Positions 8,458 through 31,003 of a DNA stretch of 64,000 bases are shown piece by piece. The notes below the pieces were generated by a model. The model worked only from the letters and a program-made list of their open reading frames with translations. It did not search any database and was not told where the DNA came from. Within the stretch, counting starts at the first letter, position 1, and every line of letters begins with the position of its first letter. This stretch comes from Spirosoma taeanense (lineage in GTDB: Bacteria; Bacteroidota; Bacteroidia; Cytophagales; Spirosomataceae), in contig NZ_CP053435.1 in assembly GCF_013127955.1 (NCBI RefSeq), positions 1,054,001-1,118,000 of the forward strand, given 5' to 3'. A program made the position numbers and the translations under genes.

Positions 8458-9897
8458 ATGGCTGATGCTACGCCTTTGCTGCGTTTCGTTACTGGTCTGC
8501 TGGTCAGTTTTGTGTTGATTCTGTTCGTACCGCTGGTTGTCTTATCGTTCTATAACCACCCGTCACCCGCCGATGATTACTGCTTTGCCAACACGGCCAT
8601 GCAGTACGGTTTCTGGCGGGCGCAGCAGTTTTATTATGATGGCTGGAGCGGCCGGTTCTTCCATAATTTCCTGGTGCATTCCAGCCCGCTGACCATAGGC
8701 TGGTACGACGGCTATAAAATTTATCCGATTATTCTGCTGGCCTTGCTGCTGCTGGGCTTCTACGCGCTGGCGAGCCAATGGCTGTACCGGTTTGGCAAAG
8801 GGCTTAAACTGGCCCTCGCAGCCGGGTTGTTTGTCGGGTTCATGGCGACGCTGGCGGGCCTGCCCGAGTTTCTGTACTGGTATGCCGGCATGGCCTGCTA
8901 CAGTCTGTCGGTGGTGCTGTTTCTCTTCCTGCTTGCTACCCTGCTGGCGCATCAACGCCATGGATTTGGTCTGCATCCCGGTTATCTGGTAGGCGAGGGG
9001 CTGCTCATTACGGCCATTGTCGGTTCCAGTGAAACCAGTATGGTGATGGTGATATCGCTGCTGGCAATGGTTGCCTTTGGCGAATTGCTCCAGCGTCGGC
9101 GGGTGTCGGCAACGATTCTGGTGCTGCTGGGCGTGGGCGCTGTTGCCTGTTATTACCTGTTGGCGGCACCCGGCAATGCCGTCCGGATGGCTTCGAATCC
9201 AAACAGCAGCAACATTCCGCTGACACTGATCTCGTCGCTTCGCTTTGCGGTGACTTATCTGGGACATCAGTTGTTTCTGACACCCCTGCTGCCGCTGTCA
9301 TTACTCTATATTCCCGTTGCTTACCAGCTAACCGGACTGTGCTCGCCCGCTCAGCCGTTACCACCGTACCTGCGCCTGCACCCGGTCTGGGCCCTGCTGC
9401 ATGGTGGGGCGACCGTTCTGGCGCTGATTTCGCTGCACTTCTTTGGCGTGGGGATTCCGCCGGTGCCGCGCCTGATCAACATCATCAATCTGGTTTTCTG
9501 GCTTAGCTGGGGATATAACCTGACGCTTTGGGTGGTCGCGTTACGTCCCCGGCTGCGCCCTGACCGGTGGGCAGGCGTTGCCCGGCCGATAGTCTTGACG
9601 GCGCTCGTGCTGACAGCGCTTGCCGTTGGCTTTGGGCCTGTTCTGCCGGTAGCCTATGGCGACTGGCTAAGTGGCCGGGCCGCGCAGTATGACCAGGCCA
9701 TGCAGCAGCGTTACGATCAGTTGACCTTATCGACCGACGGGCCTGCCCAACTGGCTCCGCTGCCATTCTATCCGGCTTCGCTGTTTCTGGAAGATGTGAA
9801 AAACGACCCGCAGCACCTCTGGAATCGCTGCTGGGCCGATTATTACCATAAAAAAACGATTGTGCTGAACGAGGCTCCGCACCGGTCAGCGCAGTAA
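8458..9897 (+). CDS. DUF6056-like polytopic membrane protein (putative GT-C glycosyltransferase)
   Basis: A 479-residue protein with about eleven hydrophobic segments. After helix 1 comes a periplasmic loop with PADDYCF (about residues 38-44) and a WSGRFF motif, as in DUF6056/GtrII-like proteins. An acidic pair in the first periplasmic loop is the catalytic feature of lipid-linked-sugar-dependent GT-C enzymes, so I infer a glycosyltransferase acting outside the membrane. It is the first of six same-direction genes (to 16586) for surface glycan assembly. The next gene shares the same architecture. Confidence 0.7.
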   Translation: MADATPLLRFVTGLLVSFVLILFVPLVVLSFYNHPSPADDYCFANTAMQYGFWRAQQFYYDGWSGRFFHNFLVHSSPLTIGWYDGYKIYPIILLALLLLGFYALASQWLYRFGKGLKLALAAGLFVGFMATLAGLPEFLYWYAGMACYSLSVVLFLFLLATLLAHQRHGFGLHPGYLVGEGLLITAIVGSSETSMVMVISLLAMVAFGELLQRRRVSATILVLLGVGAVACYYLLAAPGNAVRMASNPNSSNIPLTLISSLRFAVTYLGHQLFLTPLLPLSLLYIPVAYQLTGLCSPAQPLPPYLRLHPVWALLHGGATVLALISLHFFGVGIPPVPRLINIINLVFWLSWGYNLTLWVVALRPRLRPDRWAGVARPIVLTALVLTALAVGFGPVLPVAYGDWLSGRAAQYDQAMQQRYDQLTLSTDGPAQLAPLPFYPASLFLEDVKNDPQHLWNRCWADYYHKKTIVLNEAPHRSAQ

Positions 9898-28033: not shown

Positions 28034-28918
28034 ATGGCGGACATATACGTACAGATACCAGCCTATCGCGATTCGGAGTTGCCCAAAACGCTCCGAAGCC
28101 TGCTGGCTATGGCTACCCAGGCCGGTCGTCTGCGCATCGGTGTGTTCTGGCAACGCGCTGCCACCGACCGATTGCCCCGAACCCTGCTGAACCACTCGTT
28201 GATTGAGATTACAGACATCCCCTACTGGCAAAGTAAGGGCTGTAACTGGGCGCGGAGTCTGTTGCAGCAGGGCTGGCAGGGTGAGCCCTACACGTTACTG
28301 ATTGATTCACACCAGCGATTCGTGCGGGGATGGGATCAGCTCATGATTGACCAGTATGAAGAATTACGACGGATTGGGGTTGAAAAACCGATTTTAACGG
28401 GTTACCTGCCTCCTTACAATCCCGTCAATGAACCGCATGGGCGGCTGCATAAGCCAATGGAAATGTACGCGCTCAGGCATGATAATGGGTTGCTGACCAA
28501 GTTGGTCAGTTACCCTATGCCGTTCTGGAAGCGGCTTGAGCAGCCTAAACCGGCCCATTTTGTGTCCCTGCATTTTCTGTTCACGGCGGGGCAGTTTAAC
28601 CGCGAGATTACCTTCGACCCGGACATTTATTTCTTCGGGGATGAAGTTGTTACGAGTCTGCGCGCTTATACGAACGGGTATGATCTGTTTCATCCGCACC
28701 GCGTTCTGGGCTGGCACGCCTACGACCGCCGGACCCGCACGCCCCATTGGAACGATCATACGGCCTGGTCGGAGCAGGAACGTATATCATCTGAACGAAT
28801 TCGTGCCTTATACAGCGGGCATCTCACTGGTCCGTACGGCCCCGGTTCGGTGCGGAGCATCAATCAGTATGAATCCTATATCTACCAAAACCTGATTAGC
28901 CATGAGTCTGCTGCCTGA
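28034..28918 (+). CDS. GT60-like GlcNAc transferase (Skp1 hydroxyproline GlcNAc-transferase family)
   Basis: A 294-residue cytoplasmic glycosyltransferase without membrane segment. It opens with IYVQIPAYRDSELPKTLRSL (residues 4-23), the GT-A start of the family. At residues 88-101 is LLIDSHQRFVRGWD, matching the DSH..F...WD signature of eukaryotic UDP-GlcNAc:Skp1-hydroxyproline transferases, where this region holds the metal-binding residues. Late motifs include YFFGDEVVTSLRAYTNGYDLFHPHR. In Dictyostelium this family adds GlcNAc to a hydroxyproline made by a prolyl hydroxylase. Here the next gene, overlapping by 17 bp, encodes just such a hydroxylase. A substrate other than hydroxyproline cannot be excluded. 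Confidence 0.85.
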   Translation: MADIYVQIPAYRDSELPKTLRSLLAMATQAGRLRIGVFWQRAATDRLPRTLLNHSLIEITDIPYWQSKGCNWARSLLQQGWQGEPYTLLIDSHQRFVRGWDQLMIDQYEELRRIGVEKPILTGYLPPYNPVNEPHGRLHKPMEMYALRHDNGLLTKLVSYPMPFWKRLEQPKPAHFVSLHFLFTAGQFNREITFDPDIYFFGDEVVTSLRAYTNGYDLFHPHRVLGWHAYDRRTRTPHWNDHTAWSEQERISSERIRALYSGHLTGPYGPGSVRSINQYESYIYQNLISHESAA

Positions 28919-29531
28919 ACCGTTAACCAGCCGTCCGAAAGGGAAAAACCTGTTCTGGATAGACGATTTCATCACCCCGGCCGAATGCGCGTTCGTGTGT
29001 CAGGAACTGGAGTTTTCGTTCTGGCAGCGCAGCTCGGTGATCCGGAAAGTCGAAAATAACCAGATTCAGTCCATGCACAGTCCGACGCGAATCAGCGAAA
29101 CGTCGGGGCAGGAATGGTTCAGCGACGAGCTGCTGGACTTTCTGCAGGTGCTTGAAACCCGGCTCGAATCGCTGCTCGGTACCAGTCGACAGCGGTTGGA
29201 ATTCTGGCAGGCTACCCGGTATGAGCCGGGCGGGCAGTTCGACTACCATCATGATGCCGGTTTTTGGGAAGATGACCCGGCCGGTGAGCGGAGGCACACC
29301 ATCCTGCTTTATCTGGATACGCCCGAGCGGGGTGGGCAGACGCATTTTCGGGCCCAGGACGTAAGCGTACGGGCCGTTGCCGGGCGGCTTCTCGTCTGGA
29401 ATAATCTCTTGCCCACCGGGAGTTGCAATTACGGTATGATTCACGCCAGTACGCCCGTCCTCGAAGGGCAAAAAACCACGCTCGTTACGTGGGAGCGACT
29501 TAATCCATTCAGAACCGAACCTTTAAACTAA
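28902..29531 (+). CDS. 2-oxoglutarate/Fe(II) prolyl-4-hydroxylase-type dioxygenase
   Basis: A 209-residue soluble enzyme of the P4H/EGL-9 superfamily. The iron ligands are H116 and D118 (DYHHDAGFW) and H181 (MIHASTPV); K191 in GQKTTLVTW should bind 2-oxoglutarate. The double-stranded beta-helix core runs from about residue 100 (FWQATRYEPGGQF) to 197. It would hydroxylate proline using oxygen and 2-oxoglutarate. It overlaps the GT60-like gene and is 6 bp from a gene for a small protein with Gly-Pro triplets, so that small protein is the obvious candidate substrate (inference). Confidence 0.88.
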   Translation: MSLLPEPLTSRPKGKNLFWIDDFITPAECAFVCQELEFSFWQRSSVIRKVENNQIQSMHSPTRISETSGQEWFSDELLDFLQVLETRLESLLGTSRQRLEFWQATRYEPGGQFDYHHDAGFWEDDPAGERRHTILLYLDTPERGGQTHFRAQDVSVRAVAGRLLVWNNLLPTGSCNYGMIHASTPVLEGQKTTLVTWERLNPFRTEPLN

Positions 29532-29537
29532 ACAGTC

Positions 29538-29807
29538 ATGGCAAAGGCAGCCCAAACCAACGAAAAAGTCGTCAATGACATCATCAAGCGTTATGGCGAC
29601 GTAATCAATCTGAAAGAGAATCCGGCGCTGATCGTTGAAATCGTCCGAAACTTCGGCAAGAAGCTCCACAACGACGGAGGGCTGCCGGGTGGCGTTGGCC
29701 CCGTCGGCCCTACCAGCCATATCGAAACGGTCACTAATGCTGAGCTGATGAAGCAACTGCTGAAGCTGTCTAAAGAAATCGCGACGATCAAGTCAAAATT
29801 AGGCTAA
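29538..29807 (+). CDS. Small protein with four collagen-like Gly-X-Y triplets; candidate hydroxylase/glycosyltransferase substrate
   Basis: An 89-residue protein that I do not recognise. Residues 1-44 are probably helical (NEKVVNDIIKRYGDVINL, then ALIVEIVRNFGKKL). Residues 48-59 read GLP-GGV-GPV-GPT, four consecutive Gly-X-Y triplets with prolines at 50, 55 and 58. Residues 67-88 form a Lys/Leu-rich C-terminal helix (ELMKQLLKLSKEIATIK). There is no signal peptide and no cysteine. P50 sits in the Y position, which collagen-type hydroxylases modify. Position 6 bp after the hydroxylase and in the same unit as a GT60-type enzyme suggests it is their shared substrate. A ribosomally made, modified peptide precursor is an alternative. 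Confidence 0.8.
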   Translation: MAKAAQTNEKVVNDIIKRYGDVINLKENPALIVEIVRNFGKKLHNDGGLPGGVGPVGPTSHIETVTNAELMKQLLKLSKEIATIKSKLG

Positions 29808-29980: not shown

Positions 29981-31003
29981 ATGCGCAAATTTATTCTGCC
30001 AGCGTCCTTTCTGGGAATGCTGTACGTCGCTTCGGCCTGTCTGGAATCATCCGTGCAGGAGCCTGCTAATTCCGCTGCTTATTCATCAGCCCGTGGCGCA
30101 CGTACCGGTGCCATGCACCGTACCTGCGCGTCGCACGCCATTTATGTCGCTAAACTTCAGCGGGACCCGGCCCTGCGTGAGCGCATTCTTCGCATGGAAG
30201 CGCGGGTTCAGGCCGATACCGACGAAGAAAACCAGTCGGTTGGAGCAAAATCTAACCCCTATCAGGGCACAATCACGATACCGGTCATCGTCAATGTTCT
30301 CTACAGCAATCCGTCGGAGAACGTCAGCGACGCCCAGATCGCTTCGCAGATTGCGGTGCTGAACCAGGACTTTAACCGCCGGAACCCCGACGTAACCCTT
30401 ACCCCGAGTCTGTTTAAGGGCCGCGTGGGTGATATGCAGATGAATTTTGTGCTGGCCGGGGTGAACCGAAAAGCCTCGAATCAGGCGGTCTGGCAGGCCG
30501 ATGATTCCATGAAATTCTCCGCGTTGGGCGGTATCGACGTTACCCAGCCTGACAAGTACCTGAATATGTGGGTGTGCCGCATCGAGGATTCCGGCTATGA
30601 ACTGCTGGGTTATGCGCAGTTTCCCGGATTTCCGCCGGAAACCGATGGGGTGGTCATCAATCCCAGAAGCTTTGGAACTATCGGCCAACTCTATCCCGAA
30701 TACAATAAGGGCCGTACGGCCACTCACGAAATCGGGCATTGGTTAAGCCTGCAGCATATCTGGGGCGATGGTCCCTGTGGCGTAGACGATTACGTACGGG
30801 ATACGCCCGACTCCGACTCGCCTAACTTTGGCTGTCCGGCATATCCAACAAAAGCCTGCGGGGGAACGCTGATGACCATGAACTTCATGGATTATAGCGA
30901 TGACCCGTGCATGTATATGTTTTCCCGGGGGCAGGTCACCCGCTCGCGGTGGATGTTCTCATCACCCTACGGCCCCCGGCAGAGCTTCGTAGCCTCCATG
31001 TAG
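29981..31003 (+). CDS. M43-family zinc metalloprotease (cytophagalysin/pappalysin type), lipoprotein
   Basis: A 340-residue secreted protease. The signal peptide ends in ASAC with a lipobox-like cysteine at residue 20. After a prodomain, the catalytic domain starts near TITIPVIVNVLY. The zinc motif is HEIGHWLSLQH (HExxHxxxxxH), and the Met-turn is MNFMDYSDD, both typical of M43. Cysteines in the GPCGVDDY and CPAYPTKACG loops probably form disulfides. No sorting domain is visible. It probably degrades extracellular protein or processes surface proteins. Followed by a strong terminator. Confidence 0.93.
   Translation: MRKFILPASFLGMLYVASACLESSVQEPANSAAYSSARGARTGAMHRTCASHAIYVAKLQRDPALRERILRMEARVQADTDEENQSVGAKSNPYQGTITIPVIVNVLYSNPSENVSDAQIASQIAVLNQDFNRRNPDVTLTPSLFKGRVGDMQMNFVLAGVNRKASNQAVWQADDSMKFSALGGIDVTQPDKYLNMWVCRIEDSGYELLGYAQFPGFPPETDGVVINPRSFGTIGQLYPEYNKGRTATHEIGHWLSLQHIWGDGPCGVDDYVRDTPDSDSPNFGCPAYPTKACGGTLMTMNFMDYSDDPCMYMFSRGQVTRSRWMFSSPYGPRQSFVASM

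Follow-up and report, generated by a model that had tools for sequence, protein, structure and literature searches.

Does a bacterium carry, in three adjoining genes, a pair of proline-modifying enzymes together with the protein that they modify? The question is raised by Spirosoma taeanense contig NZ_CP053435.1, positions 1,054,001 to 1,118,000 of the forward strand. In this 64,000-nucleotide stretch (hereafter the window), genes for a GT60-type glycosyltransferase, a prolyl-4-hydroxylase (P4H) and an 89-residue small protein (SP) follow one another on the plus strand. We consider the three genes a bacterial protein-modification cassette, with a probability of roughly 70%. As judged from sequence, the P4H would hydroxylate prolines in a linker of SP, and the GT60 enzyme would then glycosylate it.

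The three genes in the window

The gene for the GT60-type enzyme (28034..28918; 294 amino acids, aa) overlaps that for the P4H (28902..29531; 209 aa) by 17 base pairs (bp), and a gap of 6 bp leads to the SP gene (29538..29807; 89 aa), exactly as an earlier reading of the DNA letters alone (the sequence-only reading) had it. All three are open reading frame (ORF) calls on the plus strand, backed by Pfam for the two enzymes, by alignment for all three proteins and by structure models for GT60 and SP. The genome has a single gene for each; two PF11397 stretches in it turned out to be one gene.

The first protein scored 205.5 bits (E 2e-60) with PF11397, for which the cut-off is 21, and belongs to the GT60 family. 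The DSH...WD signature noticed from the letters is present as D91-S92-H93 (28304..28312, plus strand; located by sequence and alignment) and W100-D101. D91, S92 and H93 were invariant in 25 of 25 aligned members of its clade (described below), likewise in an 11-sequence GT60 alignment, and the DSH motif presumably serves as the metal/nucleotide-sugar site. The window enzyme is a short form, without the C-terminal extension of about 100 aa that most other aligned bacterial GT60s have. It found no match among PDB sequences. An AlphaFold model reached a mean predicted local distance difference test score (pLDDT) of 94.6, and the 27 best structural matches in a Foldseek search, applied to this protein only, were polypeptide N-acetylgalactosamine (GalNAc) transferases. 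The best E-value was 9e-10 and the template modelling (TM) scores on the query were 0.55-0.65, at 11-15% identity and with a large root-mean-square deviation. These matches fit a peptide-modifying enzyme, without proving one.

The second protein matched PF13640 (43.3 bits, cut-off 27). Its H116, D118, H181 and K191 make up the full H-x-D...H and lysine set that had been claimed for it, and all four were invariant in 23 of 23 aligned members. We take the first three to be iron ligands and K191 to bind 2-oxoglutarate. The best solved relative of the single sequence was the algal-type P4H 2JIG (E 2.5e-11). A profile matched CrP4H (2JIG, 3GZE) at 8e-27, collagen P4H subunit alpha-2 (7ZSC) at 3e-25 and the bacterial P4Hs 5IAX, 3ITQ and 5HV0, presumably from Bacillus, at about 3e-24, as against 9.4e-4 for Dictyostelium PhyA (DdPhyA, 6T8M). 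Because of these E-values the cassette P4H appears to group with the CrP4H and collagen enzymes and not with the Skp1 hydroxylase. P4Hs of the CrP4H/collagen type act on proline-rich and collagen peptides.

The genes travel together

Two peptide patterns taken from the 11-sequence GT60 alignment were run against 84,980 species genomes, a procedure by which some relatives will be missed. It yielded 313 GT60 relatives, and in the best 80 of these we looked for P4H and SP with BLAST and with profiles. Thirty-two of these loci (L083-L113 and L142) lie nearest to the window enzyme. GT60, P4H and SP stand side by side as open frames in 25 of the 32 (type I), and four (L094, L095, L107 and L108) carry a second version (type II) taken up below. 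In the degraded locus L142 an intact P4H is accompanied by a short SP and a truncated GT60, and L105 (49% identity) lies on a contig that ends just after GT60. L110, from Rhizobium, is a decayed cassette. At 8726-9148 of this locus we observed an N-terminal P4H-like piece and a transposase-like ORF (by eye). A single SP match, at the cassette, was found in 12 of 14 genomes searched whole, and none in the genomes of L107 (Nocardioides) and L110.

The sequence-only reading had suggested a search for the three families together across Bacteroidota genomes, and had named missing conservation of SP or its Gly-Pro segment beside the enzymes as a refutation. The families do occur together and SP with its Gly-Pro segment is conserved beside the enzymes; the association is not confined to that phylum. 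The 25 type I loci span Bacteroidota, Actinomycetota, Cyanobacteriota and Pseudomonadota, and type II adds Nitrospirota. The GT60 and P4H genes overlapped or lay no more than 3 bp apart in 22 of the 22 type I units measured, out of a total of 26 that includes the window. SP usually lies downstream. In three mycobacterial loci (L098-L100) it lies upstream of GT60, which argues that SP is part of the unit whatever its position.

The remaining 48 loci had no SP match (E 0.01) and no P4H adjoining GT60 in the stretches examined, and neither the type II oxygenase nor the type II SP was found in them; absence is poorly judged in L119 (293 bp downstream) and in L118, L129, L138, L146 and L149, where the flank is short on one side. 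In L135 a P4H-like ORF lies about 7 kb from GT60. A tree of 94 GT60 rows placed 62 rows labelled as partner-less and 32 cassette-side rows on opposite sides of a branch with a Shimodaira-Hasegawa-like approximate likelihood ratio test (SH-aLRT) value of 100. The cassette-side rows comprise 27 of type I (the window, the 25 loci and L142), the four of type II and L110. The tree was a quick one (LG+G4, SH-aLRT only), weaker than a careful tree would be, with long branches flagged among the partner-less rows; L105 and L119, whose ORFs run off the contig, stand outside it. Pairwise distances among GT60, P4H and SP were correlated across 20 units (r 0.88-0.89, with 0 of 2000 permutations as high), and therefore point to a joint history of the three proteins.

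Viral contigs yielded 258 GT60 relatives, and the 80 of these that were kept (L163-L242) were 37-41% identical to the window enzyme. We rejected a phage origin, since the profiles for SP and type I P4H found nothing in these 80 loci; nor did any match the type II oxygenase or the type II SP. Two viral-contig scans, with the window GT60 or a Spirosoma SP as query, found no relative, and plasmids gave no match for SP (two queries) or for the Nitrospira repeat SP. One genome (G065) has a P4H (36%) among ORFs that by eye look phage-like, and SP is absent there. A role as a defence system was unsupported, as generic 2-oxoglutarate oxygenase models alone matched.

Conservation within Spirosoma

Within the window's family SP was confined to the window's genus, and a close P4H homologue and a GT60 gene occur in exactly the three SP-bearing genomes. 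The other two (G208 and G212) are 74-78% identical to the window in SP, 71-75% in P4H (73-76% in the family-wide search) and 77-80% in GT60. As raw counts, synonymous codon differences in SP exceeded non-synonymous ones at 40/20 and 36/23 against the window, as expected if purifying selection acts on a genuine protein; G208 and G212 differ from each other by 34/26. The Gly-Pro segment is unchanged in both except for a PPPP insertion in one, and a lysine and a short insertion before the segment in the other. A phylum-level PF11397 search found matches in 11 of 395 genomes, all except the window's own at 19.6-22.6 bits.

In the window and in G208, yicC and a methylpurine-DNA-glycosylase gene flank the cassette; in G212 it adjoins yicC, and the glycosylase gene is on a different contig. 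Among 29 loci of relatives (L054-L082), 19 have yicC within 1.5 kb of the glycosylase gene and no cassette, nine have yicC outside the 1.5-kb flank, and L071, which is G208, has the cassette. Since the two neighbours occur without it, the cassette is a discrete unit gained or lost within the genus. A promoter scan gave nothing useful. On the far side of the G212 cassette (L011, 11395-11619) we observed a second copy of the yicC 3' end, as if the cassette had arrived there with a duplicated yicC end.

The linker of the small protein

In an alignment of 23 SP members, G20, L25, P29 and P55 were invariant and I35, G47, G48, P50, G51, G52 and P58 nearly so, the placement of residues in the gapped linker depending on the alignment. 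The C-terminal helix was conserved. A model of the window protein (mean pLDDT 73, predicted TM score 0.39, to be trusted for the helices only) has helices at 2-19 and 30-43, a disordered linker at 47-61 and a helix at 67-88. From sequence and alignment, the Pro/Gly linker (residues 47-60, GGLPGGVGPVGPTS; 29676..29717, plus strand) is the likely modification segment, and P50, P55 and P58 are candidate sites. Proline made up 166 of 511 linker residues (32%) as against 61 of 1765 outside (3.5%), within bounds set by the analyst; all 23 type I linkers contain it, with 3 to 14 prolines each.

A loose linker motif, composed after the SP family had been viewed, was looked for in 15,745 ORFs called mechanically from the loci retrieved. 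Of the 37 ORFs that carry it, 22 come from the set of 30 SP or SP-like genes and the other 15 are scattered.

The window protein had no Pfam match above cut-off, and the 23 members had none better than 2e-4 in Pfam or 0.003 in NCBIfam. A Zw10_N identity was rejected as helix noise (22.1 bits against a cut-off of 26.3, in two of the 23), and no member matched a Skp1 family at E 0.1, so SP was dismissed as a Skp1 homologue. The triplets GLP-GGV-GPV-GPT seen from the letters are indeed present, at residues 48-59. The label 'collagen-like' attached to them was unsupported: the window has four triplets, and in most relatives the linker resembles PPPPPP or PPGGVGPP and has no Gly-X-Y periodicity.

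A second version with a repeated linker

Type II loci occur in two Nitrospira, one Nocardioides and one Paracoccus. Their partner protein, of about 215-240 aa, has 3-4 units like PPDGGxPEPGVPPxGP, and the Nitrospira repeat SP resembles type I SP weakly at the N-terminus (E 1e-4). All four type II repeat SPs contain the strict skeleton DGGxPxxGVxPxGP, as does a single type I protein, that of L109. The oxygenase differs, with two domains by Pfam in L094 and L107, 2OG-FeII_Oxy_3 followed by Cupin_8/JmjC. The L108 oxygenase is 43-45% identical over its full length, and that of L095 is cut by the contig end. Like GT60s thus pair with like linkers while the oxygenases differ, a promising clue, though only a clue, to the linker as the GT60 target. 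The proposal that the substrate is encoded in the operon gains from this comparison, in that the Pro/Gly linker persists across relatives and becomes a tandem repeat in type II.

Proposed sequence of events

In a first step, the P4H would use O2 and 2-oxoglutarate to hydroxylate at least one proline in the disordered linker of SP. The GT60 enzyme would then probably transfer a sugar, most likely alpha-linked N-acetylglucosamine (GlcNAc), onto linker hydroxyproline. What might follow is speculative: a bulky polar tag between the helical parts could alter the assembly or binding of SP, and the tagged protein might report O2 or 2-oxoglutarate, like Skp1 glycosylation in protists. According to the available text of PMC12101541, Skp1 of Toxoplasma forms weaker homodimers once glycosylated, because the modification interrupts a fuzzy interaction in which a disordered region takes part. 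By analogy one may speculate that SP, with helices around a disordered linker, acts in a similar way.

Points against, and other explanations

Several observations weigh against the cassette reading. A complete type I unit is missing from seven of the 32 related loci, and the unit is rare. SP was found in 3 of the 222 genomes of the window's family; in the family to which G614 belongs, the Mycolicibacterium genome of L091, 4 of 301 have it (at most 17 candidates scored per genome). Two of these four are additional to the survey loci and, in favour of the partnership, carry GT60 and P4H beside SP. The correlated distances may partly reflect shared species history, which would also produce them. 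In the window, DGGLPGGVGPVGP is near the strict skeleton yet unmatched, being one residue shorter; other type I linkers likewise approach it without matching, and L109 is the sole type I match. That SP is the substrate we infer from the operon, the motif and the repeats. Flavoprotein genes adjoin GT60 in two loci, a UDP-galactopyranose-mutase-like one before it in L102 (4280-5458) and an amine-oxidase-like one after it in L094 (1988-3460). The latter has a homologue, a flavin oxidoreductase, in L095 (835-2307). Because of these genes a donor sugar other than GlcNAc is possible. The GT60 family itself, together with the composition of the linkers, adds a further objection.

The acceptor of mucin-type GT60 enzymes is threonine or serine. 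In the available text of the sources, the family also holds enzymes that start mucin-type O-glycosylation (PMC3188802) and includes polypeptide alpha-GlcNAc-transferases of mucin-type pathways (PMC3188802, PMC6939170). Serine or threonine, often as PTS, is present in 21 of the 23 type I linkers, and the GT60 fold is closest to polypeptide GalNAc-transferases. The GT60 enzyme might thus glycosylate linker Ser/Thr in mucin-like fashion while the P4H modifies proline independently, so that the marks would be parallel and not sequential. We regard this as unlikely. The L103 and L109 linkers have four prolines each and no Ser or Thr, and since Ser/Thr is missing from 2 of 23 type I linkers while proline is in all 23, hydroxyproline is favoured as the acceptor. 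The type II repeat blocks, cut by eye, contain 24-32 prolines as against 2-8 Ser/Thr. Moreover, GT60s outside the clade have no oxygenase beside them in the stretches examined, whereas all those inside have one except the contig-cut L105 (that of L110 is broken).

It is less probable still that SP is a precursor, with a leader helix, a proline-rich core and a follower helix, which both enzymes mature and which is then cut and exported as a natural-product-like peptide. A short precursor-like gene beside two tailoring enzymes, a patchy distribution and a repeated core in type II are what such a system would show. Peptidase genes lie near some units (Neprosin in L091, L093 and L102; a subtilase in L107 and one more; in the window an M43-type metallopeptidase, PF05572, at 29981-31003 between SP and yicC). 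In L099 the gene after P4H encodes a major facilitator superfamily (MFS) transporter, and homologous genes occur in L098, L100 and L142. Neither a peptidase nor an exporter is general, however. For 22 units, 78 neighbouring proteins were compared with Pfam, in most cases the closest two to either side. They included three Neprosin (that of L102 added deliberately), two Peptidase_S8 and two MFS proteins (25 of 105 families listed), and neither G208 nor G212 has the M43 gene next to its cassette. The linker is also internal, followed by a conserved C-terminal helix. The nearby peptidases are a lead toward a role in peptide processing or secretion, not proof of one.

That SP is an adaptor or regulatory subunit, steering the enzymes to an unlinked substrate with the linker as just a docking segment, would suit a small helical protein whose C-terminal helix weakly matches coiled-coil chains, but is very improbable given the 3-4 copies of the proline motif in type II and two in the L102 SP, as expected of a substrate, and given that 22 of the 37 ORFs with the loose motif are SP-type and the other 15 scattered.

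Relation to known systems

The cassette reading makes the Skp1 pathway of Dictyostelium and Toxoplasma, with PhyA and Gnt1, the nearest known system. In that pathway, as predicted here, a P4H and then a GT60 enzyme act on the flexible region of a small protein (available text of PMC6939170, PMC12101541 and PMC7864055). Gnt1, a GT60 enzyme, is the first glycosyltransferase and puts GlcNAc on Skp1 hydroxyproline (available text of PMC6939170); for the cassette enzyme the corresponding role is suggested by family membership. For Skp1, PhyA has been co-expressed in E. coli with a chimeric Gnt1, as PMC12101541 reports. Unlike the pathway, the cassette has its genes in one operon. In Skp1 modification further transferases extend the glycan; around the cassette no other glycosyltransferase family recurs, in the ORF clusters or among the 25 of 105 Pfam families listed for the 78 neighbours. 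The sequence-only reading had called the locus a compact bacterial version of Skp1 modification. This holds in so far as the three families form a compact bacterial unit, one of whose own products is the likely substrate. The cassette is not the Skp1 pathway itself, because SP has no Skp1 match and the P4H is by its profile nearer CrP4H (8e-27) than PhyA (9.4e-4). What is already known is GT60 action after a P4H in protist Skp1, whereas the likely substrate family, the gene organisation and the bacterial host are new, and the chemistry is predicted to be the same.

The Pseudomonas prolyl hydroxylase that acts on EF-Tu belongs to the PHD-type branch. It is a precedent for prolyl hydroxylation of a bacterial protein, and the available text of PMC7864055 describes no glycosylation partner for it, unlike the cassette P4H. 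The algal- and collagen-type P4Hs (2JIG, 3GZE, 7ZSC, 3ITQ, 5HV0) share the catalytic residues of the cassette P4H and a clear sequence relation to it; the cassette enzyme differs in having a GT60 operon partner and a dedicated small protein as its likely substrate. Other bacterial and phage GT60s (PF11397) have the same family match and DSH motif as the window enzyme. Most of them have the C-terminal extension, and they lie outside the cassette clade with no oxygenase or SP in the stretches examined. Plants, algae and protists are known to contain glycosylated hydroxyproline, as far as the available texts go, and among the matches listed from 5.39 million open-access papers, available in part, no bacterial P4H-GT60 pair was found.

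If the cassette reading holds, expressing three genes that include the one for the substrate would be simple and would provide a minimal model of hydroxyproline O-glycosylation. The unit would also inform the question of how the Skp1 pathway arose, and might be turned into a portable protein tag. Only tentatively do we suggest something wider: that these genes form a signalling module dispersed among bacteria. It would record the levels of O2 and 2-oxoglutarate as hydroxyproline-GlcNAc marks placed on a small scaffold protein of its own; its oxygenases would be exchangeable and the number of its modification units could be tuned. Such a module would be the prokaryotic counterpart of Skp1 oxygen sensing, and might even be related to it or have given rise to it.

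Neighbouring genes and other GT60 loci

Clustering of mechanically called ORFs from the 32 related loci gave no general fourth gene. Three clusters crossed genera. One is a Neprosin-family gene (PF03080) in two mycobacteria and an acidimicrobial genome (L091 3443-4792; L093 1150-2475; L102 77-502), another comprises TetR-type regulators (L092, L093, L097) and the third consists of very large proteins of L094, L104 and L107, of which that of L107 is the subtilase. Neprosin is a proline-specific endopeptidase, and the enzyme near the cassette may act on SP. For comparison, 22 control loci that do not belong to the clade supplied 83 neighbours, and among the 25 families listed for these HtrL_YibB, Gly_transf_sug and Fimbrial alone reached two or more members; Neprosin, S8 and MFS each stayed below two.

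GT60 genes were also seen in other settings. In L013 and L014 two divergent GT60 genes flank one gene, which in L014 encodes a long PTPSPT-type repeat protein; this is another possible GT60-substrate pair, without a P4H. On a Burkholderia plasmid (L029) GT60 adjoins type VI secretion genes, and on an Azospirillum plasmid (L030) it lies near annotated phage-tail-sheath genes.

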